Shown in pieces: positions 998 through 37,917 of a DNA stretch of 64,000 nucleotides. The DNA comes from Candidatus Gallionella acididurans (GTDB taxonomy: Bacteria > Pseudomonadota > Gammaproteobacteria > Burkholderiales > Gallionellaceae). Positions within the stretch are counted from its first letter, which is position 1. The number at the start of each line of letters is the position of its first letter. The position numbers and the translations under genes are program-made. The notes below the pieces were generated by a model. It saw only the letters and a program-made list of their open reading frames with translations. It was not told where the DNA came from and searched no databases. The DNA is taken from NCBI GenBank assembly GCA_001577345.1, contig LSLI01000005.1:1-64000 (forward strand), written 5' to 3'.

Positions 998-3469
998 ATG
1001 GTGAATCAGCCTGGCACGCTCGGCACCACTGGCTGCTTTCATTGCGGTCTGCCTGTCGCTTCGGGGGCTCACCATCACGCCGATCTGGACGGAGCGCAGA
1101 GGAGTTTCTGTTGCCCGGGCTGCCAATCGGTGTGCACTGCCATTTTTGGGGCAGGGTTGCAGGGATATTACCAGCGCACACCAGAAGGCATGCTGCTTGC
1201 CCCCCCGCCGGAGCCGCCCGGGGATATTGAAATCTATGATTTCGACGAGGTGCAGCAGGAATTTGTCACCTGCTCCGGCGACCTGCGCGACATTCACCTG
1301 CTCGTGGAAGGCATCCACTGTCCCGCCTGTGTGTGGCTGATCGAACGCGGGCTGCAACGCGAACCCGGGGTTCAATCGGCCAATGTCAATCTGGCCGCCA
1401 AGCGCATACACCTGCGCTGGGACAGCAAGCGCAACAAGCTTTCCAGCCTGATCCGCGCCCTCGCCAGGATAGGCTACGCAGCCGTGCCTTACGATCCGGA
1501 AAATGCGGAAGGGGTAATCAAAAAAGCCAATCGCAGCATGCTCTTCCGCCTGTTCTTCGCGGGCTTTGCCATGATGAACCTGATCTGGATTTCCATCGCG
1601 CTGTACAGCGGTGCGAACAAGGGAGAGTTCCGGGAGTTCTTCCACTGGATGGGTTTCGCCCTGGCCACGCCGACCCTGTTGTATGCGGGTTATCCATTTT
1701 ACCGGGGCGCAATCGGCGGGTTGCGCGCCTGGCGGCTAACCATGGACTTGCCTATTGCCATCGGCCTGAGCGTGACCTATGCCTATTCCACCTATATCAC
1801 GGTCACGGCGAACAAAATCGGCGAAGTGTATTTCGATACGGTGACCAACCTGATTTTTGTGATTCTGATCGGGCGCTATCTGGAAGGCCTGTTCCGCCAT
1901 CAGGCGCTGTCCGCCACAAGGCGGCTGATGGAATTGCAGTCCCGCGTGGCAACCGTGATACAGGACGGCAAGGAACAAATCGTGCCGACACGCGGGGTAA
2001 AACCCGGCGACCGTGTTTTGATCAAGCCCGGTTTTAAAGTGCCGGTGGACGGCATCGTGCTCGAAGGGCACAGTGCAATCGATGAATCCATGCTGAGCGG
2101 GGAATCCGCGCCGGTCAGCAAATATGCCGGCGCAAAGGTTTCCGCCGGGACGGTGAATACCAATGGCGCGCTGCTGGTTGAGGTAAGTTCGACTTTACAG
2201 AACACCACACTGTCAAAAATCATCCGGCTGGTTGAAGAGGCGCAAGCATCCAAGGCACCGATACAACGCACGGCCGACACCATCGTGCCGTGGTTTGTTT
2301 TGGTAACGCTGATTTGCGCGACGCTCACATTCTTCATCTGGAACACCAAAAGTTTTGAACTCGCCCTGATGGCGGCGACCTCGGTGCTGATCATCACCTG
2401 TCCCTGCGCGCTGGGAATGGCGACGCCGATGTCGATTGCCGTGGCCTCCGGATTGGGGGCAAGGTACGGCATCTTGATCAAGAACGGCCTGGTGCTGGAG
2501 ACCCTGTCCAGGGTGAATCATTTCGTGTTCGATAAAACCGGCACGCTGACTGAAGGCAAGATGAGCGTGGCGCATGTGTGTACCACGCCCCTCGCGGCCA
2601 GGAAGGACATTTTACGCATCGCGGCAGCGGTGGAACGTTACAGCGAACATAGCGCAGCCAGGGCCATCATTGCCGAGGCGGAAGTACATCGGCTGAACTT
2701 TCGTGATGTCACGGTGCGGGAATTTCATTCCGTGGCCGGGTTGGGTGTGCAGGCTGAAGTGAATGGAGAACCCGTGCTGCTGGGCAGTGCCGAATGGCTG
2801 ATCCGCAGCCGCATCACGCTGGATGAAGGTCTGCTGGCGCAGGCGCGCGAACTGGAAGCACAAGCGATGAGTTGCGTTCACTGCGCGTTGGGCAATGCGC
2901 ATGTGGCGGTATTCGCACTGGCGGACAAATTGCGCGATGACGCGCGGCAACTGGTGAACGAGTTGCGTGCAGCGGGCATAGCCATGACCCTGCTGAGCGG
3001 GGACCGCAAGGCGGTTGCCGATGCCATCGCGCTGCAACTGGGCGGCATGGAAGTGATTGCCGAAGTGTTGCCGCAGGACAAGGATAGGGTGATCCAGCGC
3101 TTGCAACAAGGCGGAAAAGTCGTAGTCATGGTGGGCGACGGCATCAACGATGCGCCCGCCCTGGTGCGTGCCGACGTCGGTATCGCTCTTGGATCGGGAA
3201 CCGATGTGTCGCTGGAAAGTGCCGACATCGTGCTGATGCACAACGGGCTGGACAAGGTGCGGTTGGCAACACTGCTGTCGCGCCGCACCCTGCGCACCAT
3301 CAAGCAAAATATCGGGCTTTCCTTTATGTATAACGCTATCATGGTACCGCTGGCGATGATGGCCAGGATAAATCCACTGGCTGCGGCTATCACCATGCCC
3401 ATCAGCTCATTGGTGGTGATCGGAAATGCGGCGCGCATCCGCAACCTGTTCAAAAATGAAAAACCCTAG
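998..3469 (+). CDS. ccoI: P1B-type copper-transporting ATPase CcoI/FixI
   Basis: 823 residues, the usual length for FixI-type pumps that export copper for cbb3 oxidase assembly. An N-terminal zinc-finger-like segment (CxxC at 13-16 and CCPGC at 38-42) precedes a heavy-metal-associated domain with GIHCPAC (Cys108, Cys111). Then come membrane helices, the intramembrane CPC motif (near residue 467), the phosphorylation site DKTGTLT (near 511) and the hinge GDGINDAP (near 712). All catalytic signatures are intact. Six bases separate it from ccoH and nine from ccoS. The poor ribosome site at the ATG suggests translational coupling to ccoH. Confidence 0.96.
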   Translation: MVNQPGTLGTTGCFHCGLPVASGAHHHADLDGAQRSFCCPGCQSVCTAIFGAGLQGYYQRTPEGMLLAPPPEPPGDIEIYDFDEVQQEFVTCSGDLRDIHLLVEGIHCPACVWLIERGLQREPGVQSANVNLAAKRIHLRWDSKRNKLSSLIRALARIGYAAVPYDPENAEGVIKKANRSMLFRLFFAGFAMMNLIWISIALYSGANKGEFREFFHWMGFALATPTLLYAGYPFYRGAIGGLRAWRLTMDLPIAIGLSVTYAYSTYITVTANKIGEVYFDTVTNLIFVILIGRYLEGLFRHQALSATRRLMELQSRVATVIQDGKEQIVPTRGVKPGDRVLIKPGFKVPVDGIVLEGHSAIDESMLSGESAPVSKYAGAKVSAGTVNTNGALLVEVSSTLQNTTLSKIIRLVEEAQASKAPIQRTADTIVPWFVLVTLICATLTFFIWNTKSFELALMAATSVLIITCPCALGMATPMSIAVASGLGARYGILIKNGLVLETLSRVNHFVFDKTGTLTEGKMSVAHVCTTPLAARKDILRIAAAVERYSEHSAARAIIAEAEVHRLNFRDVTVREFHSVAGLGVQAEVNGEPVLLGSAEWLIRSRITLDEGLLAQARELEAQAMSCVHCALGNAHVAVFALADKLRDDARQLVNELRAAGIAMTLLSGDRKAVADAIALQLGGMEVIAEVLPQDKDRVIQRLQQGGKVVVMVGDGINDAPALVRADVGIALGSGTDVSLESADIVLMHNGLDKVRLATLLSRRTLRTIKQNIGLSFMYNAIMVPLAMMARINPLAAAITMPISSLVVIGNAARIRNLFKNEKP

Positions 3470-3478
3470 GGGGGCGAC

Positions 3479-3634
3479 ATGGATGTAATTTACACTTTGA
3501 TACCCGGCATGACGTTCCTGGGCCTGGTGTTCTTTGCAATAATGATTTGGGCAGTCAAACAGGGACAGTATGAAGACATGGAAGGCAATGCCAACCGCAT
3601 TCTGCAGGATGACGATGAAGACATGATGCCATGA
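3479..3634 (+). CDS. ccoS: cbb3-type cytochrome oxidase assembly protein CcoS
   Basis: A 51-residue gene read directly from the sequence. It begins MDVIYTLIPGMTFLGLV, has one membrane helix (about residues 5-27) and ends in an acidic tail (QDDDEDMMP). This matches CcoS/FixS, a small membrane protein needed to insert cofactors into the cbb3 oxidase catalytic subunit. A GGGGGG run just before the start acts as a strong ribosome site. It is the last gene of ccoGHIS; the next gene runs in the opposite direction. Position and shape make the call firm despite the small size. Confidence 0.9.
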   Translation: MDVIYTLIPGMTFLGLVFFAIMIWAVKQGQYEDMEGNANRILQDDDEDMMP

Positions 3635-3693
3635 CCATTCACCGGACGAAAACACCCATCCCGCAATAATGAAGCGTGGCGACTTCGGTAGAT

Positions 3694-4362
3694 CTATTGG
3701 ACTATCTCGCCGCTGGTCAATAAAGGCTTAACCAGCTTGTCAAAATCCCCGGGCGCGACATATTGCAGCAACGGTTTTTCGCTGCCTCCCAGAGCGATAT
3801 CCAGTCCGTTCTGCGGATACAGCCAGTGGATCACGCCACTTTTCTTTTCCCTGATGCGTTGCGCCGGTTGCCCAAAACGCTTGGCGAAAACAGTGTCTTC
3901 CAAACGAACCAAAGGCATATAGGTCAGGCTGCCGATCGGCATGGTGAATACCCTGGCGACATCATCCGGATCCATGGTGATTTCCTTGCTGCCACCCGTG
4001 GCATTCATGCGCAAGCCCCGCGCCAGCATGCCTTGCAATTCCGAATCCGGAACCATGATACTCAACACTATCCTGCCTTTCAGTCCGGCCAGATTGACCT
4101 CTTCAAAAAAAACTTCCACAGCCAATTGACCGTTGGGCGATTTGAACAAGATGGGTTTGGCCACCTCCTTGAAATGCTGTTCGGCCTGGTTGGTGTTGCT
4201 TTGTCCCAAGGTGACGCCGAATATCTGGATGGTATCCGCAGTCGGATGCCCGATATGCCAGGGCAAGTCTGATTTCTCGGCGGGCTGGTCCCCCTGAAAA
4301 AAAGCCACCCCCAGGATCAGCAGCGCAACAAGCGTGATTCCCCAATAGATTTTTCTTTCCAT
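3694..4362 (-). CDS. Conserved hypothetical membrane-anchored periplasmic protein
   Basis: 222 residues. An N-terminal signal anchor (MERKIYWG then a hydrophobic helix at about 7-23) leads into a soluble domain with no motif I can name. It contains no cysteine, so it is not a lipoprotein or a metal-cysteine protein. It converges on ccoS, leaving 59 bases between the stops. Function unknown. The clear anchor and a body free of low-complexity sequence support a real gene. Confidence 0.75.
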   Translation of the reverse strand: MERKIYWGITLVALLILGVAFFQGDQPAEKSDLPWHIGHPTADTIQIFGVTLGQSNTNQAEQHFKEVAKPILFKSPNGQLAVEVFFEEVNLAGLKGRIVLSIMVPDSELQGMLARGLRMNATGGSKEITMDPDDVARVFTMPIGSLTYMPLVRLEDTVFAKRFGQPAQRIREKKSGVIHWLYPQNGLDIALGGSEKPLLQYVAPGDFDKLVKPLLTSGEIVQ

Positions 4363-4633
4363 TTTTGCGGGCCAGTTTGAATTAAATCACAAGTCAGGAA
4401 CAAAGCCTGAAATCGCGAAGATCAGCCACCACATGAACTCCCACCGCCCATGAAAAATTGGGCGAACCAATGACCGAAAAACAAGGGGATGCGGCATTAT
4501 TTCCGGATGGTATCATCTGATCCCTGATGATGCTTAATTCTGACTTTAATTAAAAACCAGACAGTGAGCCTGATTCGCACATGTTGAAACAAATCAACAT
4601 GAACCTGAATAAACTACCGACCGAAAACAAGGC
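4363..4633. other. Divergent intergenic region without a gene
   Basis: 271 bases between two divergent genes, presumably holding both promoters. A short hairpin (ATGTTGA, six-base loop, TCAACAT, about 4579-4598) lies 35 bases before the 4634 start. I recognise no regulator site and no reading frame here. Confidence 0.5.
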
Positions 4634-5071
4634 ATGAGACTCCCGGACCTGAATATTTTCACTGCCTGGCTTCTGATCCCGCAGACCTTGGCAATGGGCT
4701 GGGTAGCAGCACTCGGGCGTTTGATACTGGAACTGTTCGGTACGGATACCCCGGAGGAAGGAATTCCCGGGCGCATCGTCGGCGCGTTGTTGTTGCTGGG
4801 CGCTGTCTTTGTGGTACGCCGCCTGCTCGGCGGCACCCTGCCCATTGTTGGCAATCCGGTCGGCAATGGTTATCGTTTCGGACATCGTCTTATTTTGACA
4901 GGCAATATTCTGGCGGCAGCATTGTTTGTTTTTCAGATTGCCTGGCATTGGATACCCAGCGCTGCGGCAGTGATGGTAATGGCCCAGCTCACTTCTGCGT
5001 TTGGCTACTGGGTCATGGCGCTTTGGATGGCGGGGTTTTCTTTTCTTTACCAGTCGACTCAAGTTGCCTAA
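4634..5071 (+). CDS. Hypothetical integral membrane protein
   Basis: 145 residues with about four predicted membrane segments: near 8-35 (AWLLIPQTLAMGWVAALG), 47-62 (IVGALLLLGAVFVV), 84-105 (LILTGNILAAALFVFQIAW) and 113-138. There are no motifs I can name. The ATG has no strong ribosome site. Downstream lies the recombined phoU/tRNA-Pro hotspot, so this is the last apparently intact gene before it. Function unknown; hydrophobicity and helix spacing support coding. Confidence 0.65.
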   Translation: MRLPDLNIFTAWLLIPQTLAMGWVAALGRLILELFGTDTPEEGIPGRIVGALLLLGAVFVVRRLLGGTLPIVGNPVGNGYRFGHRLILTGNILAAALFVFQIAWHWIPSAAAVMVMAQLTSAFGYWVMALWMAGFSFLYQSTQVA

Positions 5072-5144
5072 CTTTCGCCATAGTTCGGTGGCCGATTATG
5101 CAAAGTTATTATCTATTCAAATTATTTTTGCACAGGAGAAAACC

Positions 5145-5238
5145 GATGGATAACCCGATTTCAGGAATGATCGTGAGGCCTGATATCGATTGTAGTCGTG
5201 CCGCTGCCATCATGTGCTACGCGCTCATCGGCAGGTAA
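5145..5238 (+). pseudogene. Possible orphaned gene start (30 codons) reading into the phoU remnant
   Basis: A good ribosome site (AGGAGA) precedes an ATG at 5145 (MDNPISGMIVRPD...), but the frame closes after 30 codons and runs antisense into the 3' end of the phoU remnant. It may be the 5' stump of a gene lost when the region was rearranged, or an accident. No family is recognisable. Confidence 0.3.
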
Positions 5239-5617
5239 CACCCCGGTTGTAGCAAGATATGCGGCTTCGGCGATATTGGTGGCGTGGTCGCCAACGCGTT
5301 CGATATTCTTGGCGCAGCAAAGAAGATGGACGAAGCCGACCACATGCGCATGGTCTTCAGTCATGCGTACGAGAATTTTCTTGAATAGCGCAGTGTGTAG
5401 TTTGTCAATCGCATCGTCCTGTTGACGGATGATCAGCGCCTGCTCAGCATTACGCGAAACGCAGGCATCAAGTCCTTGTCTGACTTGAGCCGAGGCGAGG
5501 CCTGATAGCCGCTCAACGTCTCCTCCACAATATCCTGCGGAAAAGGTTCGTTCGCTATCACATTAGCGCGCTTGGCGATGTTTTTGGCCAAGCCGCCAAT
5601 TCGTTCGAGGTCTCTCA
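5161..5617 (-). pseudogene. phoU: Broken phoU: 5' truncated and frameshifted
   Basis: The minus strand encodes the middle and end of a PhoU-type phosphate-signalling regulator in two frames. The upstream piece has the PhoU signature RDLERIGGLAKNIAKRA; the downstream piece reads ERLSGLASAQVRQGLDA and later AKNIERVGDHATNIAE, the second conserved PhoU helix motif. A one-base shift is needed near 5515-5525 to join them. About 90-100 N-terminal residues are missing: homology stops at about 5613, where an opposite-strand integrase fragment begins. PhoU normally damps the PhoR/PhoB response with the Pst transporter; this copy cannot be functional. No pst or pho genes are nearby. Confidence 0.8.
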
Positions 5618-5640: not shown

Positions 5641-5939
5641 GTGAACAGTTGCAGTCAGTGGGGACAGCTTATAAAGCGCTGCTCAAGCGTGTCGGGATCG
5701 AGGACTTTCGGATTCACGATTTACGCCATACTTGTGCATCATGGCTGGTTACTGCTGGGGTGCAACTACCTGCGGTGATGGATTTGCTCGGTCATTCGTC
5801 AATCCAGATGACAGAGCGATACGCACACCTCTCACCCGAGAATGTTCGGGCTGCTGTATGTGCGCTGGATGGTGTGGCACAAAATAGTCACACCAATTTT
5901 AATGTACCTGAGCTGAGTAAGACTAAGGCACTGATTTAA
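5622..5939 (+). pseudogene. Tyrosine recombinase/phage integrase, C-terminal fragment
   Basis: About 105 residues of the catalytic C-terminus of a tyrosine recombinase. It contains the HDLRHT box (H-x-x-R), then LLGHSS and MTERYAHL with the nucleophilic tyrosine. The N-terminal DNA-binding part and the first catalytic arginine are absent, and the fragment begins at the phoU junction, so it is a remnant. Its stop lies one base from the encoded CCA end of tRNA-Pro, the usual place for the integrase of an element inserted at a tRNA 3' end. It is unrelated in frame and strand to the integrase on the other side of the tRNA. Confidence 0.85.
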
Positions 5940-6007
<68 letters not shown>

Positions 6008-6017
<10 letters not shown>

Positions 6018-7402
6018 CTTACGTTTTGTGATGCTGTAGTATAGTTTGTAGTATAGTTACCGACTAAAATAAACCAAATAAATTTGTTTAATATTAGAGC
6101 TTTAAGATAGCAGTTGCAGCCTCGCCCCACTCCTAACTTTGAATCACTATAAGGCATACGGGGTGTGTTGTTAATCGACACAATGGTCAGTATGTCTATC
6201 CCTTCGCCGTACAAGAATCTATATGTAATGCAGGTATGCCGTAGACTATATAGCGCACGATTTTCGCCAGTGGCAGTTTCTTTCAATCCAACATCATTTA
6301 GAACAATAGAAAACTGCTTCTGCAAATCTTTCAGCGCATAGTCCCTGTTTCGCTGCTGTGGCAAAAAAACATAGTCATCAGGCTTTGCTAGGCCCTGCGC
6401 CGCGTAATGGTCGCGTATTCGCTCATATACAACCACAGCCCATTTCATAGTAACTATAGGCTTATCGTGCTTTTTGGTTTTTGGTAATGACAAGCGCAAA
6501 TATGTGAAATCATTATTGATGATTGCCACATGCTTGTGCTTGAGGACTTTGATGTCACTTGGACGTATAAAGCTATTAGCCATAAATACGATCAAATTGT
6601 ATAGGTCATATGAGATTGTGATATTGCGAATTGGCTTGCCTAATTTCTGTTCACCTTTTTTCAAATCTGCTTTTGGGTAGATGATGTGGTGTGCATCTTC
6701 GCCATCATCCTTGCCATTACTTACAGATCGTATTTCATATTTAGCTCCAACCAATCGTTTTGCTGCACTCCACACTTTGCGATATTCACGTGTATTAAGC
6801 CAACCACGCGGCGAATCTTCCTTTTTTATTTTAGGGAACACTGGCATTGCCTTAATCAGTTCTTTTTTCAGTGCGTGTTGCAGCACCTTCTTAACGATGC
6901 CCATATATGCAATTGCTGTTGTCTGCCCTATGTCTTTGTCCTCGCTCACCTTGCGCAGAAATAGCTCTAGCGCAAAGTAGTCAATTTTGCCAATTTCGTA
7001 AACCCTAAAGAATGGCAGTATGTGTTTTTTTAATCGCCATTCGTCATTGTTGTGCACCGACTTTGTCAGTTCGCCGCGTGTTACACGAGCCAACTGCATT
7101 TCCATCGCAGCAAACGCGCAATACTCAAACGAAGTGTCCTTGCTTGCCGACAATGCCAGCCCTGCATGTTTCTTGTAATTTATTTCGTCGTAAAACGCTT
7201 TAGCTGCTGCAATGGCCTTCTTCTTATCCGTCTCCTTTGTGCTGCGGCGCAGAATTTTCCCATCCGTGTAATAGCGCATCCACCAAAACGGCGATGCCTC
7301 TAATTGGTAGATGACAAGCTTTTTGGGAAAGCCAGGTACGGACGTAAGTGATGCTGATATGGGTGTAGTGCGATGCTTGGGTTTTGCGGCAGCGTCAGTC
7401 AT
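6008..7402 (-). CDS. Tyrosine recombinase (element integrase) with atypical C-terminus
   Basis: 464 residues. It resembles phage and island integrases: an N-terminal region with WWMRYYTDGKILRRSTKE, a SAM-like core-binding segment (about 90-190), and a catalytic domain with the first arginine in SFIRPSDI and a YSLRHT box where histidine is usual. After DILTI the normal '(H/W)...Y' box is not recognisable; the sequence reads instead VSINNTPRMPYSDSKLG and ends NYTTNYTTASQNVSGV. The last codons lie in repeat arms and the stop is inside tRNA-Pro. It may therefore be inactive or strongly diverged. It is AT-richer than its neighbours and is the only gene between the two att repeats, which suggests a 1.6-kb integrase-only remnant. 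Confidence 0.85.
6035..6056. repeat. Two direct copies of TGTAGTATAG (candidate integrase arm sites)
   Basis: TGTAGTATAG occurs at 6035-6044 and 6047-6056, twelve bases apart, 18 bases inside the left att repeat. The same 10-mer forms an inverted pair near the other end (7463-7488). Placement at both ends of the element resembles integrase arm-type binding sites. Confidence 0.5.
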
Positions 7403-7488: not shown

Positions 7489-7572
7489 GTTAAATGCAAG
7501 ATGTTATATAACTCTATGTTTTTTATATGTATTAAACGTAATTTTACGAGATATTAATGAGTGCCTACTGTA

Positions 7573-7611
7573 TCCCGAACGCAGTACTCTACCAGGCTGA
7601 GCTACACCCCG
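7573..7611. repeat. Attachment-site copy (right): original 5' half of tRNA-Pro
   Basis: Identical to 5979-6017. It lies 11 bases past the ispB stop codon, so it probably marks where the native tRNA-Pro began. It lacks the anticodon 3' stem, T-arm and acceptor 3' strand, so it cannot make a tRNA. Confidence 0.85.
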
Positions 7612-31723: not shown

Positions 31724-33355
31724 ATGCCGCGCATTGCCATTTTCAAGCAGGGTTCCGGCTCACAGCACGGCGGGGTTCTATTGGTGATGCTGGTGATCCT
31801 GGTCATCGGTGCCGCAGCCCTGCTGGTCAGCGCACTTAATGGTTCCTCGCTGAAAATCGCGCGCGACAAGACCACTGCCGATGCGTTGGCACAAGCCAAG
31901 GATGCACTGATAGCCTATGCCGCCAGCGATGCGAATCGCCCCGGCGAACTGCCCTGTCCCGATTTCAATAATGACGGACCCATCACTCTCACCGAAGATT
32001 ACAGCGGTAGCAATTGCCTGGGCCTGGTCGGCTGGTTGCCGTGGAAATCGCTGGGACTGCCCGACTTGCGCGACGGCAATGGCGATCGTTTGTGGTATGC
32101 GGTGGCCGCTCCTTTTCGCGCCAATGCGCCCTCCACGGTTATCCTGAATAGCGACACACCGAGTGCCTACCCGACACAGATGTTGACGGTGCTGGACAGC
32201 GCCACCGGAGCCACACTGGAAAGCGGCGTCATCGCGATCGTATTCTCTCCCGGCGCCCCGCTGAATGGCCAAACGCGCAGCCCCAGCGACAACAATGCCA
32301 CCAATGCGATCCCGAATTATCTGGAAGCGGATAACGCCAACCTGAATACCACGTTCCAGACTGCCAACAACAACCAGGTTCCCGTCCCGACCACAATCGT
32401 GAATGACCGCCTGCTGACAATCAGAAGCAGCAACCTGTTCCCGCCTGTCGAAAGACGCATCGCGCGCGAGGTAAAAGCCTGCCTGGATAATTATGCCGCG
32501 ATGCCGGTTTCGACCAATGGCAATGTGGCCGGGCTGAAATATCCTTGGACCGCGCCGACAAACTACGCATCCAGTTCACCCGGAATCAACGGCAATTACA
32601 ACGGAACCTACCTCACATACTTCGGCAGGGTACCCGCTCAGCCCAACATAGACACCTCTTCCAACCCCGCATCGACCTTGATGACCGCGCTCAACACGCT
32701 GCAGGCGGCAGAGGGTGCCTTCAACACCAGCAGCAGTTCAGCCAACAACACCGCGCTGCAGAATGCTGCCAATACCGTCCTCAACCTGAAAAATTCGGTC
32801 TCCAACGTCTCATCCACTACGATAAATCAGGCAGGCGCTTATGGAATCTATTTTGCAAACGGGTCTACCAGCTATTCGACCGCAACATCCTATCTCACAT
32901 CGGCCACCAACGCGCTGATAAACTCTGATGATCTTGACCTCAGGATGTCGATCTCCTGGCCGGCCACTTGCACAATTCTCAACAGCCCTTCTTCCTATTT
33001 CTGGACCGCCTGGAAGAACATGGTGTTCTACCAGGTGGCAAAAGGTTTTCAACCCGGCAGCAGCGCAAGCTTTGGCGTGCCATTAACCATTAACGGTTCC
33101 GGCGCCTACCGGGCCACGGTACTGATCGCAAGAGCCGCGCTCAACTCGACACAAATCAGCGGACGCAGCAATCCTGCCATCAGCCCCACCAACCCTCCCA
33201 CGCCTTATCTTGAGGGCATCAATCCGCATTCGGGCTCGCCCCCGACAACCACTTTCGTAACCTATAGCACATCCGACCCCAACTACTCCACCGTAAATGA
33301 TCTGGTATTGTGCCTGGACGGGAAAGGGACCAACCCAGGAAGCGTATGCCCATGA
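31724..33355 (+). CDS. Large pseudopilin/PilX-like protein of the msh-like locus
   Basis: 543 residues. A basic N-terminus then HGGVLLVMLVILVIGAAALLVSALNGSSL, an N-terminal helix like minor pilins or PilX but without the classical GFTLIE. The body has DALIAYAASDANRPGELPCPDFNNDG and WLPWKSLGLPDLRDGNGDRLWYA, matching in miniature the next gene's DALIGYAVINGRLPCPAS and SWGNRIHYA. The two are therefore paralogues, this one with a long Ser/Asn/Thr-rich insertion (about 190-420). It probably forms part of the fibre tip or adhesin. Overlaps the next gene by four bases. Confidence 0.7.
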   Translation: MPRIAIFKQGSGSQHGGVLLVMLVILVIGAAALLVSALNGSSLKIARDKTTADALAQAKDALIAYAASDANRPGELPCPDFNNDGPITLTEDYSGSNCLGLVGWLPWKSLGLPDLRDGNGDRLWYAVAAPFRANAPSTVILNSDTPSAYPTQMLTVLDSATGATLESGVIAIVFSPGAPLNGQTRSPSDNNATNAIPNYLEADNANLNTTFQTANNNQVPVPTTIVNDRLLTIRSSNLFPPVERRIAREVKACLDNYAAMPVSTNGNVAGLKYPWTAPTNYASSSPGINGNYNGTYLTYFGRVPAQPNIDTSSNPASTLMTALNTLQAAEGAFNTSSSSANNTALQNAANTVLNLKNSVSNVSSTTINQAGAYGIYFANGSTSYSTATSYLTSATNALINSDDLDLRMSISWPATCTILNSPSSYFWTAWKNMVFYQVAKGFQPGSSASFGVPLTINGSGAYRATVLIARAALNSTQISGRSNPAISPTNPPTPYLEGINPHSGSPPTTTFVTYSTSDPNYSTVNDLVLCLDGKGTNPGSVCP

Positions 33356-34161
33356 AATATCCAAATCAATATCGATTAATGAGCCCGGGCTTCACGCTGA
33401 TCGAGATGGCCATCGTGCTGTTTATCGTGGCTCTTCTGATGGGTGGCTTGCTGCCCACGCTGACCAGCCAGATCGAGCAACGGCGCAACAGCGATACCAG
33501 CAAACAACTGAACGAGATCAAGGACGCGCTGATCGGTTATGCCGTCATCAATGGCCGCCTGCCCTGCCCCGCTTCACCCACCAGCAATGGCGCGGAGAGT
33601 CCGGTTGGCGGCGGAAATTGCACGAATTTCTACAATGGCTTCGTACCTGCCGCGACGCTGGGTCTCTCCGGGACAACGGACAGTTCAGGATTTCTTATTG
33701 ATTCCTGGGGCAACCGCATCCACTATGCCGTCACTTTATGGACGTGGAATTCCCCAACTCCACCGACCCCACCAAATGTTCCCTACGTCTTTACCACAAC
33801 TAACGGAATGAGCACCGTCGGGATGTCGAACTTCCCAACGACCGGAACACCACACCTGCAAGTGTGTTCTACCGCTATTAGCGCTACCGGTTCGAGTTGC
33901 GCTTCATCACTTGTAACACTCACTTCTAGTCCCGGCGTACCAGTAGTCATCTATTCGACTGGCAAGAATGGTGCATACGGCGGCACAGGCCCAGATGAAG
34001 CAGAAAACCCCAATCCCAAGAGCGCCGACAACGACCGCGTGTTCGTCAGCCATCTCCCGACAGGAAGCGGCGCACCCAACGGTTATTTCGACGACATCGT
34101 CATCTGGATATCGCCGAACGTGCTGATCAACCGCATGGTGGCCGCAGGCAAGCTGCCGTAG
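33352..34161 (+). CDS. Prepilin-type N-cleavage/methylation protein (pseudopilin)
   Basis: 269 residues. A short leader ends MSPG, then FTLIEMAIVLFIVALLMGG, with Glu at +5 of the mature protein: the PilD-type cleavage and methylation motif. The ATG at 33352 overlaps the upstream stop; longer frames from 33310 add no conserved sequence. The body shares the GRLPCPAS and GNRIHYAV motifs with the preceding gene. It is the only clear class-III leader in the locus; no typical major pilin is visible. The last 35 bases recur at 35580-35614. Confidence 0.85.
   Translation: MKYPNQYRLMSPGFTLIEMAIVLFIVALLMGGLLPTLTSQIEQRRNSDTSKQLNEIKDALIGYAVINGRLPCPASPTSNGAESPVGGGNCTNFYNGFVPAATLGLSGTTDSSGFLIDSWGNRIHYAVTLWTWNSPTPPTPPNVPYVFTTTNGMSTVGMSNFPTTGTPHLQVCSTAISATGSSCASSLVTLTSSPGVPVVIYSTGKNGAYGGTGPDEAENPNPKSADNDRVFVSHLPTGSGAPNGYFDDIVIWISPNVLINRMVAAGKLP
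34127..34161. repeat. Direct repeat copy 1: 3' end of the pseudopilin gene
   Basis: The last 35 bases of the pseudopilin gene (TCAACCGCATGGTGG... to the TAG stop) match 35580-35614 with one mismatch. The pair brackets the insertion carrying two accessory genes. Confidence 0.85.
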
Positions 34162-34192
34162 GTTTATAGAGGCCTACGGGTACCGCATTCTC

Positions 34193-34837
34193 ATGAGAAA
34201 ACTTCTGGTTTGGCTGAAATCCATACTACATTGGCTAGTTGAATGGTGGTTGTTTTGTCTTGGTTTCTTGGTAGTCGCCGCCTCGGCTGCCTCTATTGTC
34301 TTCGTCGGCGCTGGTGAAGCGGCATTCCGCTATACCGGAATGGTGTTGCAACTTCTGGGTATTGGCACAGTTGCATGGGGCATTCATACCACTCGTAAAG
34401 AATTCGGCCATCCGAGTATCTTCGCAGTTTGGCGCAAACGATTAAATCGCTTTCCCCCGTTCGGGGGCCGGATGGTGACAGGAAGCTCCCACAAAACGCT
34501 TCCCCTTATGACTAAAAGTATGCGCGGCTACAGTTCAGTAGTCCCTAGTGCAAACCCAACGATTGACGCACGAGTCCATGCACTGGAGGAAAACCTGAGG
34601 CTACTTAACGATCGGGTGAGCCAAACACAAAATGAGACGGATCAGGAGTTTCGTAAACAATCCGATGCACTTAAGCAAGAACAACAAGTTCGATCCGATG
34701 AAGACCAACATATCCGCGCAAAATTAGAATCGACTGAAACTGGTGGCCTGAACATCTCAGCAATGGGTGCACTGTGGTTATCCATTGGGGTCATCATGAG
34801 TTCCATTCCATCTGAGCTGGCTGTGTGGCTCAAATAA
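34193..34837 (+). CDS. Membrane/coiled-coil protein of an accessory islet
   Basis: 214 residues, no family recognised. Two N-terminal membrane helices (about 17-40 and 45-64), a basic cytoplasmic loop, a coiled-coil-prone stretch (about 125-180, with DRVSQTQNETDQEFRKQSDALKQEQQ) and a last hydrophobic helix (about 186-208). It looks AT-richer than the pilus genes and lies between duplicated gene tails, so it was probably acquired. It precedes a HEPN-like gene by 43 bases; together they could be an effector-plus-sensor cassette. Function unknown. Confidence 0.7.
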   Translation: MRKLLVWLKSILHWLVEWWLFCLGFLVVAASAASIVFVGAGEAAFRYTGMVLQLLGIGTVAWGIHTTRKEFGHPSIFAVWRKRLNRFPPFGGRMVTGSSHKTLPLMTKSMRGYSSVVPSANPTIDARVHALEENLRLLNDRVSQTQNETDQEFRKQSDALKQEQQVRSDEDQHIRAKLESTETGGLNISAMGALWLSIGVIMSSIPSELAVWLK

Positions 34838-34880
34838 TGCCCAACCCATTCAAGCGGGACTGCGCAAAAGCTCGCCACCA

Positions 34881-35573
34881 ATGAACTCCACATTAACGTC
34901 ACAGGAAGCACTCGTGAGCCAGCCACCGCAAATTCAGTTTGATTTATTGGCAAACGCTCGAGACTCACTCAGACAGGCGGTTGAACTGCTCGCTTGGAAA
35001 GACATCGGGTCTGATCACGCAAGACTGAAGCACTCGATCACCAATGCAGCCCACTCGATTGAATTGCTATTGAAAGAGCGGCTTTACCGTATAAATCCCG
35101 CGTTTGTCTGGGAGAACGTGGACAAATATCCAAATCTTGAGGCTAACACCGTTAACGTCAACACCGCAATTTCTCGCCTGAAGAATATTGGCGCTGTCAT
35201 GTTTTCCGAGAAGGACGAAAATAATATACGGTCACTGCGCAAGACACGCAATGCCATCGAGCACTACGAATGGCGCACCACAGAGAAAGAGGCAAAAATC
35301 ATTGTTGGAAATGCTCTTAGTTTCGCGTTTTCATTCGCCGCTGAGCAGCTTGGCATCGATCTCGCTGCCGACTTCAAACAAGACGATACTTGGCGTTCAC
35401 TCATTGAGGAACTGTACGACTTCGTTCGCATTCATGGCGCGAGGCTTGAGGCAAAGCTCAGAGAGAACGGCGAATATCCGTCCTACTGCGACGCTTGCGG
35501 CGAACTCACAGTCCCTATGCGCGGCGGCAGTTGCGAGCTATGCGGTCACTGGCAGATCGTTGATGATGCTTAA
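34881..35573 (+). CDS. HEPN-like protein with C-terminal zinc ribbon
   Basis: 230 residues. A helical domain contains LRKTRNAIEHYEW: RNAIEH is an R-x4-H motif like that of HEPN ribonucleases, preceded by a helix pattern (HSITNAAHSIELLLKERL) common in HEPN domains. The C-terminus has CDACGEL and CELCGH, two CxxC pairs forming a zinc ribbon. ATG at 34881 has no ribosome site; GTG at 34914 has AGGAAG six bases upstream and may be the true start. HEPN proteins often act as RNA-cleaving toxins or defence effectors. That role here is inference. Confidence 0.7.
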   Translation: MNSTLTSQEALVSQPPQIQFDLLANARDSLRQAVELLAWKDIGSDHARLKHSITNAAHSIELLLKERLYRINPAFVWENVDKYPNLEANTVNVNTAISRLKNIGAVMFSEKDENNIRSLRKTRNAIEHYEWRTTEKEAKIIVGNALSFAFSFAAEQLGIDLAADFKQDDTWRSLIEELYDFVRIHGARLEAKLRENGEYPSYCDACGELTVPMRGGSCELCGHWQIVDDA

Positions 35574-35579
35574 TCTCGG

Positions 35580-35614
35580 TCAACCGCATGGTGGCGGCAG
35601 GCAAGCTGCCGTAG
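35580..35614. repeat. Direct repeat copy 2: orphan 3' end of a pseudopilin gene
   Basis: 34 of 35 bases match 34127-34161, including the stop codon. It lies eight bases from a convergent cysS tail fragment, so this spot preserves a pseudopilin/cysS gene junction without the genes. Confidence 0.85.
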
Positions 35615-35622
35615 ATTTTTTA

Positions 35623-35766
35623 TCAGGCGCGCCGCCAGGCGGTGCCCGATGCGCTGTCTTCCAGCACGATGCCCATAGCCAGCAGTTCATTGCGGATACG
35701 GTCGGCCTCGGCGTAGTTCCTGAACTGCTCTGCGGCAATGGTGATTCGGGTCATCACCTTCGCGCT
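35623..35766 (-). pseudogene. cysS: cysS 3'-terminal fragment (diverged duplicate)
   Basis: The minus strand encodes about 47 codons ending [32 protein letters not shown] and a stop. The intact cysS at 36520 ends [32 protein letters not shown]. The match is clear but diverged in DNA, so this is not a recent duplication of the resident gene; import of a homologous junction from a related strain is more likely. No start or catalytic part is present. Confidence 0.88.
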
Positions 35767-35822
35767 TTCACCAATTTAACCAGGTATATGCCATAATCCC
35801 AGATAGTTCATTAGCCCAAAAT

Positions 35823-35882
35823 CCGTTCGCCCTGAGGTATCGAAGGGCTTGCTCAAGTGGTTCGATACCTCACCACGAACGG
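35823..35882. repeat. Dispersed-type inverted repeat
   Basis: CCGTTCG and TGAGGTATCGAA at the left are mirrored by TTCGATACCTCA and CGAACGG at the right around a 16-base centre. It resembles the short CCGTTCG...CGAACGG intergenic repeats known in many proteobacteria. It lies between the cysS fragment and the toxin-antitoxin-like pair. Confidence 0.7.
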
Positions 35883-35954
35883 TCTTTTACACCCGACTTC
35901 TCCTAATGGATTATCCGGGATAATCATCGCCGCGTTATATTGAGGGGAAAGACC

Positions 35955-36179
35955 ATGGAACAAGTTGCCAGGATTACCGTTGATCCAAACATCTGCGGGG
36001 GGAGGCCTTGTATTCGTGGACTACGCGTGCGAGTCAAAGACGTGCTGGAAATGCTGGCCTCTGGCATAACCAAAGAAGACATTCTCAGGGACTTCCCCTA
36101 TCTCGAGGCCGATGACATTTCTGCTTCGCTCGAATACGCCGCAAAGCAAGTAGACCATCCCATTCTGCAGGCTGCCTGA
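35955..36179 (+). CDS. DUF433 antitoxin-like protein
   Basis: 74 residues. ITVDPNICGGRPCIRGLRVRVKDVLEMLASGITKEDILRDFPYLEADDI is the DUF433 pattern, a small winged-helix-like domain found as the antitoxin partner of DUF5615 proteins. ATG at 35955 with GGGGAAAG upstream; an in-frame TTG lies 15 bases before. Two bases separate it from the toxin-like gene, typical of such pairs. It probably binds the promoter and neutralises the partner. Confidence 0.88.
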   Translation: MEQVARITVDPNICGGRPCIRGLRVRVKDVLEMLASGITKEDILRDFPYLEADDISASLEYAAKQVDHPILQAA

Positions 36180-36181
36180 TA

Positions 36182-36511
36182 ATGCGCTTTCTGGTCGACG
36201 CGCAATTGCCACCCGCGTTGGCCCGTTTTCTGAATGATGCAGGTCATCAAGCAGAACACGTTTATGACATTGGGATGGGGACGGCCAGCAATAGGGCTAT
36301 CTGGAACTATGCACTGCAAAACAACGCGACAATAATCACCAAGGATGAGGACTTTGTCAGTCTTATCAGCGTTCAATCCGGCACACCATCCGTGATTTGG
36401 GTACGTGTCGGGAATACCGGCAAACAGGCTTTATTGAATTGGATAGAACCAATGATGGAGCGCATCGTCGCCGAGATTGAATCGGGTGAAAAGCTGATTG
36501 AAATCGCTTGA
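36182..36511 (+). CDS. DUF5615 PIN-like toxin-type protein
   Basis: 109 residues. MRFLVDAQLPPALARFL (catalytic-type Asp6), DAGHQAEHVYDIGM and ATIITKDEDFVSL with the acidic KDEDF motif match DUF5615, a PIN-like (Mut7-C-related) nuclease fold. With DUF433 it forms a presumed toxin-antitoxin module. Its stop is eight bases from the convergent cysS stop, so the pair occupies the space at the cysS 3' end. Confidence 0.88.
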   Translation: MRFLVDAQLPPALARFLNDAGHQAEHVYDIGMGTASNRAIWNYALQNNATIITKDEDFVSLISVQSGTPSVIWVRVGNTGKQALLNWIEPMMERIVAEIESGEKLIEIA

Positions 36512-36519
36512 TCGATAAA

Positions 36520-37917
36520 TCAGGCCCTGCGCCACGTCGTACCTTGTGGTGTGTCTTCCAATACGATTCCCGCATCCAGTAATTCCTTGCGGATGCGGTC
36601 GGCCTCGGCATAGTTTTTGGCATTCTTGGCAGCGATGCGCGCTTCGATCTGCGCATTGATTCCCGCATCATCCAACCCGCCTGCGCCCGCGCTTCCCTGC
36701 AGGAATTCCGCCGGCTCGCGTTGCAGCAATCCCAGCACGCCGGCCAGAGACTTGAGTTGCGCAGCCGCTTCAGCAGACTGGCTGCGGTTCACTTCGTTGG
36801 CGAGTTCGAACAACGCCGCAACCGCCTCCGGCGTGTTGAAGTCGTCGTCCATCGCGGCCCTGAAACGGGCGGCATGTGGCCCGCCCCAATCCACTGCCTG
36901 CGCAACAGCAGGTGCCGACTTCAAAGCGGTATAGAGACGCGTCAGCGCACCCTTCGCATCGTCCAGGTGTGCGTCGGAATAATTCAGCGGGCTGCGGTAA
37001 TGCGCGCGCAGTATGAAGAAGCGCAGCACCTCGGCGTCATATTTTTGCAGCACATCGCGGATAGTGAAGAAGTTGCCCAGGCTCTTGGACATTTTCTCCT
37101 TGTCCACATTGACGAAACCGTTGTGTATCCAGTAATTGACGAAGGTGCATCCCCCACCCTGCTCATGTAGCATCGCGCCCTCGCTCTGGGCGATCTCGTT
37201 CTCGTGATGCGGGAACTGCAGGTCGGCTCCGCCGCCGTGGATGTCGAAATGGTTGCCGAGCAATTTTGAACCCATCGCGGAACATTCGATATGCCAGCCG
37301 GGGCGGCCCTTGCCCCACCTGGAGTCCCACTTCACCTCGCCGGCTTCCTGCTCTTTCGCGTGTTTCCACAGCACGAAGTCAAGCGGATCGTTCTTGTTGT
37401 CGGCGACTTCGACGCGCTCGCCGGCGCGCAGGTCTTCCAGCGATTTGCCGGACAACTTGCCGTAACCGGGAAACTTGCGCACCGCGAAATTCACATCGCC
37501 GTCCGGCGCCCGGTAGGCCAGGCCATTTGCTTCCAGCTGCGCGATCATGTCGAGCATCTCCGGCACAAATTGCGTGGCGCGCGGCTCATGGTCGGGGCGC
37601 AGCACGCCCAGCGCGTCGGCATCCTCGTGCATCGCGGCAATGAAGCGCGCGGTGAGATCATGGATGGATTCGCCGTTCTCTGCCGCGCGCTTGATGATCT
37701 TGTCGTCGATGTCGGTGATGTTGCGCACATAGTTCACCTCGTAGCCACTTGCCTTGAGCCAGCGGTACACGATGTCGAATACCACCAGCACGCGCGCATG
37801 GCCGATATGGCAATAGTCGTACACCGTCATGCCGCACACATACATGCCGACCCTGCCCGTAACCATGGGCACGAATTCCTGCTTGTCACGCGCCAGCGTG
37901 TTGTAGATTTTCAACAT
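36520..37917 (-). CDS. cysS: Cysteinyl-tRNA synthetase
   Basis: 465 residues, class I synthetase. Zinc and ATP motifs: [17 protein letters not shown] with HIGH (about 37-40), the zinc-ligand cysteines and [10 protein letters not shown], and KMSKSLGN near 270-277. Charges tRNA-Cys. The C-terminal DALR-type helical region ends in WRRA. It is full length; the diverged fragment at 35623-35766 repeats its last 45 or so codons. glnS is 63 bases upstream on the same strand. Confidence 0.97.

Follow-up and report, generated by a model that had tools for sequence, protein, structure and literature searches.

Two adjacent genes of Candidatus Gallionella acididurans, P1, encoding a membrane protein, and P2, encoding a predicted HEPN zinc-ribbon protein, raise the question of whether they form a two-gene defense system or became neighbors in some other way. 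They are located between a pseudopilin gene and the convergent cysS in a 64,000-nucleotide stretch of contig LSLI01000005.1, hereafter the window, and an earlier reading of its letters and ORFs (the sequence-only reading) had likened the pair to phage-defense or abortive-infection cassettes. We consider it probable that the islet is instead a piece of an integron cassette array that has become stranded, holding a predicted HEPN RNase (P2) and an independent membrane protein (P1) with a decayed attC site between them.

An Islet between a Pseudopilin Gene and cysS

Both ORFs were found where the sequence-only reading had placed them, on the plus strand and with 43 bases between the P1 stop and the P2 start codon. 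The repeat of the pseudopilin gene end that brackets them, noted as 35 bp and near-perfect, is real and extends to 39 bp. The islet and its borders comprise the following features.

33352-34161, plus strand: pseudopilin (prepilin-type) gene, forming the left border of the islet (Pfam N_methyl; translation; relatives with the gene tail to tail with cysS)
34127-34165, plus strand: end of the pseudopilin gene, first copy of the 39-bp direct repeat (37 of 39 positions identical to 35580-35618)
34193-34837, plus strand: P1, membrane/coiled-coil protein of 214 aa, uncharacterized family (ORF; attC-flanked relatives)
34839-34904, plus strand: candidate decayed attC (sequence, motif counts, Markov expectation; folding negative)
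34881-35573, plus strand: P2, predicted HEPN and zinc-ribbon protein of 230 aa (ORF; profile matches; alignment)
35247-35264, plus strand: HEPN motif RNAIEH (R-x4-H) in P2 (R, N, I, E, and H invariant in alignment A2 of the P2 family)
35487-35543, plus strand: zinc ribbon of P2, two CxxC (sequence; alignment)
35580-35618, plus strand: relic pseudopilin gene end, copy 2 of the repeat (repeat comparison; terminator-like stem)
35622-35748, minus strand: decayed copy of the cysS 3' end, marking an old junction (72% over 82 nt; 66% at the amino acid level, residues 425-465)
35955-36511, plus strand: second cargo, a DUF433 and DUF5615 (PIN-like) pair of toxin-antitoxin type (Pfam)
36520-37917, minus strand: cysS, the other border of the cargo site (Pfam)

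P2 may start further in, at GTG 34914, a position that corresponds to the likely starts of two of its relatives (L002 and L004). Since the decayed cysS end sits directly behind repeat copy 2, the middle of the islet reads as the relic of an old junction between a pilin end and a cysS end, and the DUF433/DUF5615 cargo was placed between this relic junction and the real cysS end. In 20 relatives, the pilin and cysS genes were nearly tail to tail in 6 (2 to 86 bp) and at least 680 bp apart in 14, proportions that carry no meaning as frequencies because the relatives were hand-picked from the matches, with and without inserts. Several of the long spacers carry pilin-type or regulator genes of the same cluster, as judged by eye. 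Inspected likewise, spacer cargo varied (L080-L099) and included aquaporin-like, VapBC-like, HigBA-like, GGDEF/EAL, and FecR-like ORFs, with other spacers empty. A DUF433/DUF5615-type pair between two cysS ends was seen in two genera, in the window (35622-36519) and in genome G341 (L081, where the pair was assigned by eye), and the cysS-end relic is about 115 bp in both.

Within repeat copy 2, 35591-35612 can form a terminator-like stem with a T run behind it, although terminator-like sites were no commoner than in shuffles (2 found versus 2.3 expected). A promoter search confined to the sigma-70 type returned nothing from 33900 to 35885 and one site at 35886, against an expectation of 1.8 for the stretch. 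Together with the distance of 31 nt between the pseudopilin stop and the P1 start, this makes read-through the simplest route of expression. Transcription from the pilin operon would thus probably run through P1 and P2 and end at the stem-loop at 35591. Cassettes in integrons are described as generally promoterless in the available excerpt of PMC11014356.

Both Families Include Integron Cassettes

An attC site begins with RYYYAAC, ends with GTTRRRY, and folds into a hairpin. Sites of this type were found in three of the ten loci with a P1 relative. In L102 (genome G075), the P1 relative is preceded by an integron-integrase relic (TIGR02249, 196 bits, residues 1-167, one stop), with a GTTAGGC core between the two; an attC-type stretch follows the stop of the P1 relative (6386-6539, z -3.6, best hairpin approximately 40 to 50 bases in), and more attC sites lie further behind. 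L128 (G969) has attC sites on both sides of the P1 relative, at 5540-5602 (z -3.1) and 6214-6285 (z -2.9), while in L129 (G1064) an attC at 6533-6635 (z -6.0) overlaps the stop and GTTAGGC lies ahead of the start.

Among 11 P2 relatives, one had attC sites on both sides, one had a site on one side plus a candidate, and two showed partial signs. The first (L002) lies between two 126-nt attC sites, 5797-5922 (z -4.6) and 6596-6721 (z -4.9), with parts of a third copy further on. In the second (L005), the upstream attC folds (z -3.0) and the downstream candidate was no better than shuffles (z -0.48). The partial signs consisted of GTTGGGC ahead of the gene and an attC-like insertion sequence (IS) end at its stop in L104, and of a box at the stop only in L004. 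No accepted attC was found in 7 of the 10 P1 relatives or in 7 of the 11 P2 relatives, and weak candidates near L107 and L126 failed a stricter scan. Hence, both families include integron gene cassettes, and some members have a foldable attC after the ORF.

The hairpin of L104 was rejected as sole proof of a cassette's own attC, being the end of an IS91-like element that was identified by Pfam Y2_Tnp and Zn_Tnp_IS91 and whose alignment with two L156 copies breaks off at the same base. This element (2908-5376) carries a Y2 transposase and a gene of the phage-integrase family, its attC-like hairpin end abuts the stops of neighboring genes, and genome G160 apparently holds dozens of copies.

Integron integrases scoring over a cut-off of 265 bits were present in six of nine genomes chosen for carrying a P1 or P2 gene, versus none of 14 control genomes, all of which gave weaker matches. 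No integron integrase with attI was found at the window locus. The best match in the window's own genome is on another contig (C96), where the C-terminal half of an IntI ends the contig with 242 bits over residues 172-314, under the cut-off.

A Candidate Decayed attC Follows P1

Directly 3' of the P1 stop stands TGCCCAACCCATTCAAGCGGGACTGC, of which the left half, GCCCAAC-CCAT-TCAAGCGGGAC, has the form of an attC half-site and the right half, AACGTCAC, is degenerate. No hairpin was detected, either in 34832-34915 (z +1.35) or in the 43-bp gap (z +1.15). The strict pattern GCCCAAC-4-TCAAGCGGGAC matched twice in 548 kb of partly overlapping loci, at the window site and at a foldable attC in L156, and had no match in five Markov replicates; a looser pattern gave 18 matches, one place being counted twice, versus 7.4 expected. 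Both patterns were written after the window site had been seen, and the motif counts are therefore support rather than proof. A 24-base stretch of the half-site had no second copy in the same genome at up to three mismatches, searches of plasmids and E. coli gave no convincing match to the half-site, and no attC follows P2 in the window. From this one half-site, we infer a decayed attC in the window.

P1 and P2 would accordingly have been captured as separate integron cassettes, and the P1-attC-P2 fragment would now lie outside any integron, stranded between the pseudopilin gene and cysS. P2 would cut RNA by means of its R-x4-H site upon infection or a stress trigger so that the infected cell stops growing, with its C-terminal zinc ribbon probably holding a substrate or partner. 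P1 would act as an independent inner-membrane protein with N-terminal helices, a long coiled coil, and a C-terminal helix. A duplicated gene tail of 39 bp is no hallmark of integrons, which counts against a cassette origin, and we rejected the repeat as an attC pair because it is pseudopilin coding sequence.

Origin of the Bracket and Arrival of the Cargo

Given the bracket, the flanks of P1 or P2 family genes were compared without gaps in 22 distinct loci, with 187 control ORFs from the same loci. A score of at least 27, a threshold fixed after the scores were seen, was reached in 4 of the 22 family loci (the window, L002, L006, and L130) and by 1 of the 187 controls, an ORF around which the end of a tRNA-Pro gene is duplicated; the next control scored 13. 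A bracket as strong as that of the window is thus unlikely to arise by chance. The four high-scoring brackets differ in nature. That of L002 is the pair of attC sites. In L006, the HEPN gene (5929-6759) lies between perfect 69-bp copies of the end of the upstream histone-deacetylase-type gene. The P1 relative of L130 is flanked (5730-6575) by an intergenic palindromic repeat of approximately 70 bp (66 nt, 53 identical, fold z -3.2) in which no attC boxes were seen on inspection.

The right 69-bp copy of L006 lengthens the HEPN reading frame. The tRNA-Pro gene of the window (5941-6017, minus strand) has its end duplicated at 5971-6017 and 7565-7611 (94% over 47 nt) around an ORF at 6008-7402, and an integrase-like C-terminal stretch (5664-5855, E 4.5e-6) lies just outside the duplication. 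The ORF itself was dropped as an integrase candidate, having no Pfam match at 0.001.

For the arrival of the cargo, we give an even chance to homologous recombination of a neighbor's pilin-cysS region in which one end was joined illegitimately, the duplicated ends being leftovers of the old junction. This account concerns arrival and is compatible with a cassette origin. It would explain the relic pilin-end/cysS-end junction in the middle of the islet, and the cysS-end relic can be aligned further with genome G324 (83% over 112 nt) than with the window's own cysS (82.8% over 64 nt). The DUF433/DUF5615-type cargo of G341 lies likewise between two cysS ends, and homology-facilitated illegitimate recombination has been described, at least in the portion of PMC3240628 available to us. 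However, 39 bp is too short for a test of mosaicism, and no donor emerged, with a P1 or P2 homolog in none of the 20 junction loci from relatives.

Alternatively, the islet could be a tiny integrative element. A tyrosine integrase acting in trans would then have produced the 39-bp repeat as an att duplication, and the integron features would be coincidental; we judge this improbable. The 39-bp repeat does lie at a gene 3' end, and it is matched by the tRNA-Pro end duplicated in the window and by the perfect gene-end repeat around the HEPN relative of L006; distant HEPN relatives also lie directly beside a tyrosine recombinase/integrase gene on 6 of the 12 plasmids opened. The islet, however, lacks an integrase, no spacer of the relatives compared carries the pilin end a second time, and the attC half after P1 would be left unexplained.

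P2 Belongs to a Candidate Defense Family

The two motifs that the sequence-only reading had seen in P2 are present, the R-x4-H motif as R123-N-A-I-E-H128 and the zinc ribbon as C203/C206/C218/C221. Against PADLOC, P2 matched PDC-S64 (E 4.5e-25) and DUF3644 (1.4e-7). PDC-S64 was matched by all nine members of the P2-family alignment A2, with the match of P2 spanning only positions 2-133 of 339. In Pfam, P2 reached 16 bits with DUF3644, under the gathering score of 27.6, and five of the nine A2 members matched this family at E up to 0.01. The R, N, I, E, and H columns of RNAIEH were invariant in A2, and the N supplies the polar residue that follows R in the HEPN motif R-x4-6-H. A wider profile search over six-frame ORFs from 77 sequences returned 31 matches in 30 loci, one of which is a repeat, L003 and L109 apparently being the same record. 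RN-x3-H, sought anywhere in the ORF and not through the alignment, occurred in 30 of these 31, versus 25 of 811 other ORFs of at least 200 codons; the one ORF lacking it is an N-terminal fragment from a gene split by an IS. At least two CxxC were present in 28 of the 31. The motif is thus conserved in homologs. Among PDB chains searched by sequence, none matched P2 except weak zinc-ribbon ones.

DUF3644 is among the HEPN families of Anantharaman et al. 2013, and HEPN domains with the motif are argued there to be metal-independent RNases (PMC3710099, as excerpted). Taken together, the profiles and the alignment support P2 as a HEPN-type protein of the candidate defense family PDC-S64. The PDC families are candidates nominated by embedding and mostly untested, according to the sections available of PMC12988326 and PMC11514479, and a search under the name PDC-S64 found no paper in the literature collection covered.

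P2-type matches were rare, occurring in 6 of 300 genomes in an order-level sample and 9 of 398 in a phylum-level sample. Defense genes were found beside 4 of the 11 P2 relatives (L005, L007, L106, and L108), in a PADLOC run on chosen neighbors in these four loci; chosen neighbors in L004 were also compared with profile libraries. In L005 (Halomonas), the neighbors are a GmrSD-like gene and a RiboL-PSP HEPN gene, while L007 has ApeA beside the P2 relative. In L106 (3493-6347; G071, same family as the window), an LmuB-like (Lamassu) ATPase gene lies 38 bases upstream of the P2 relative, which is possibly a HEPN effector on a Lamassu-type sensor. In L108, AbiL/RloAB and HmaB lie on either side. 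Near the P2 relative of L004 are DUF3577 and DUF3275 genes, which we take to be gene types typical of integrative conjugative elements.

L004 also contains four radC RNA motifs (RF01754) within approximately 7 kb (270-406, 2320-2466, 3807-3954, and 6803-6941), one of them just 3' of the HEPN gene. Distant P2-like HEPN genes occur on Streptomyces-group and Cytobacillus plasmids, where 12 loci were opened of 24 matches, with incomplete gene tables; a tyrosine recombinase/integrase gene directly adjoins in six of the 12 (L167, L168, L171, L176, L177, and L178), with the HEPN gene directly downstream on the same strand in five of the six, and L170 and L172 have a recombinase within one or two genes. 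Carriage by phage or prophage was rejected on searches of viral contigs, which held no relative of either protein, two of the searches reaching close relatives only, and for P2 also on a collection of phage records, which held no relative of it.

Judged by its family and neighbors, an antiphage role of P2 is plausible. Instead of a defense RNase, P2 could also be a HEPN protein that serves mobile elements in housekeeping or regulation, and the recurring recombinase neighborhood on plasmids fits such a role, as does the mostly untested status of PDC families (PMC12988326, in the part available). We regard this as unlikely given the conserved catalytic motif, the defense neighbors at L005, L007, L106, and L108, and the patchy distribution among genomes.

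P1 Is a Membrane Protein outside Known Families

Hydropathy placed the hydrophobic peaks of P1 at residues 20-38 and 188-206. The architecture proposed for P1 by the sequence-only reading stood for the N-terminal and C-terminal helices and for a charged, coiled-coil-like middle (approximately 118-182), which matched only profiles of coiled-coil-like type; its second N-terminal helix (approximately 50-68) fell under the threshold in P1 and over it in several relatives. Neither Pfam nor PADLOC placed P1 in a family at E up to 1; PHROGs gave a best value of 0.27, NCBIfam only look-alikes far under the cut-offs, and solved structures only weak coiled-coil-type matches. No useful solved-structure homolog was thus obtained for either P1 or P2. 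The sequence-only reading had recognized neither protein as part of a described system, which remains so for P1 and no longer for P2, which matches PADLOC PDC-S64. Ten P1 relatives, 13 to 40% identical over the alignment, came from a Skermanella plasmid and from further genomes of the same order and class. A P1 relative in G224 has a TIR-TM gene (PADLOC E 1.1e-48) on one side and an ORF with the motif RNHATH on the other.

P1 and P2 Are Not a Conserved Pair

The proposed two-gene system turned on a conserved pairing of P1 and P2 in other genomes, and no examined locus other than the window holds both families. With tblastn, no P1 was found in the loci of P2 relatives L002-L007 and L015-L019, and no P2 in the loci of P1 relatives L009-L014. 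A profile search of wider loci again found both families in the window only. In order-level samples of 300 genomes, P1 matched seven and P2 six, the overlap being the window's own genome. An obligate P1-P2 pairing was rejected, as no second locus was found. The defense-cassette reading therefore survives in P2, a predicted HEPN protein of a candidate defense family with a conserved motif, and fails as a two-gene system. The survey for a fixed pairing near defense genes likewise divided, yielding the defense neighbors of P2 relatives and no fixed pairing. Each family has members that are integron cassettes of their own, which explains the adjacency of P1 and P2 without joint function.

Two P1-relative neighbors were considered and rejected as HEPN proteins, those of L128 (G969) and L101: the RNNLFH ORF in the cassette ahead of the P1 relative in G969 has no Pfam or PADLOC match and the RNHATH ORF of G224 matches DUF6586, so that both readings are by motif only and lack profile support. 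A dedicated abortive-infection or toxin-antitoxin module, in which membrane-bound P1 restrains or triggers the HEPN RNase P2, is very doubtful: the two genes adjoin on one strand 43 bases apart, and P1 relatives neighbor the RNNLFH cassette in G969 and the TIR-TM gene and RNHATH ORF in G224, but neither motif ORF has a HEPN profile match, no second locus with both families turned up even in the samples of 300 genomes, and six P2 relatives of 54-71% identity occur without P1. It is a similarly long shot that P1 founds a new integron-borne family of membrane proteins teaming with exchangeable toxin cassettes (the DUF3644-type HEPN in the window, the RNNLFH ORF in G969, and TIR-TM in G224). If true, cassette shuffling would generate mix-and-match membrane-plus-toxin defense pairs, and a useful combination would become fixed once stranded beside a host operon.

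Comparison with Known Systems

With a stranded cassette-array fragment as the preferred reading, what appeared to be a new two-gene system is recast as a testable cassette history. The islet also illustrates a trap for guilt by proximity, in that cassette neighbors can be random partners. Two families, a HEPN candidate and a membrane protein, join the integron cassettes for which an antiviral role is plausible. Integron cassettes are now seen as a store of antiphage genes, with at least 16 of 179 cassettes antiphage in V. cholerae and 9 of 57 tested in V. parahaemolyticus (PMC12409362 and PMC12444791, in their available parts). As presented in the accessible text of PMC12409362, the antiphage cassettes of Vibrio chromosomal and mobile integrons (Darracq 2025, Kieffer 2025, Getz 2025) are small ORFs between attC sites that provide streamlined defense. 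In contrast, P1 and P2 lie outside an integron, with their attC decayed or lost, and are known here from sequence.

P2 shares with PDC-S64, a single-gene phage defense candidate of PADLOC, the HEPN domain with R-x4-H, and differs from PDC-S64 and DUF3644-like proteins in being shorter, in its compact C-terminal zinc ribbon, and in its partial profile coverage. The EC042_2821 group, which overlaps DUF3644 and for which the available portion of PMC3710099 reports zinc-ribbon fusions and restriction-modification operons, resembles P2 by description. From the same excerpt, PDB 3jrt is a HEPN protein in an integron cassette, as are some P2 relatives; it is listed there under another HEPN family, and P2 had no match to 3jrt among solved structures. 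If P2 protects against phage, one PDC family would gain a function.

P1, whose family had no convincing match in the four libraries searched, touches known systems through the TIR-TM gene, a PADLOC membrane effector that adjoins its relative in G224, while P1 itself has no PADLOC or Pfam match. If P1 protects too, an unannotated protein family would be solved.
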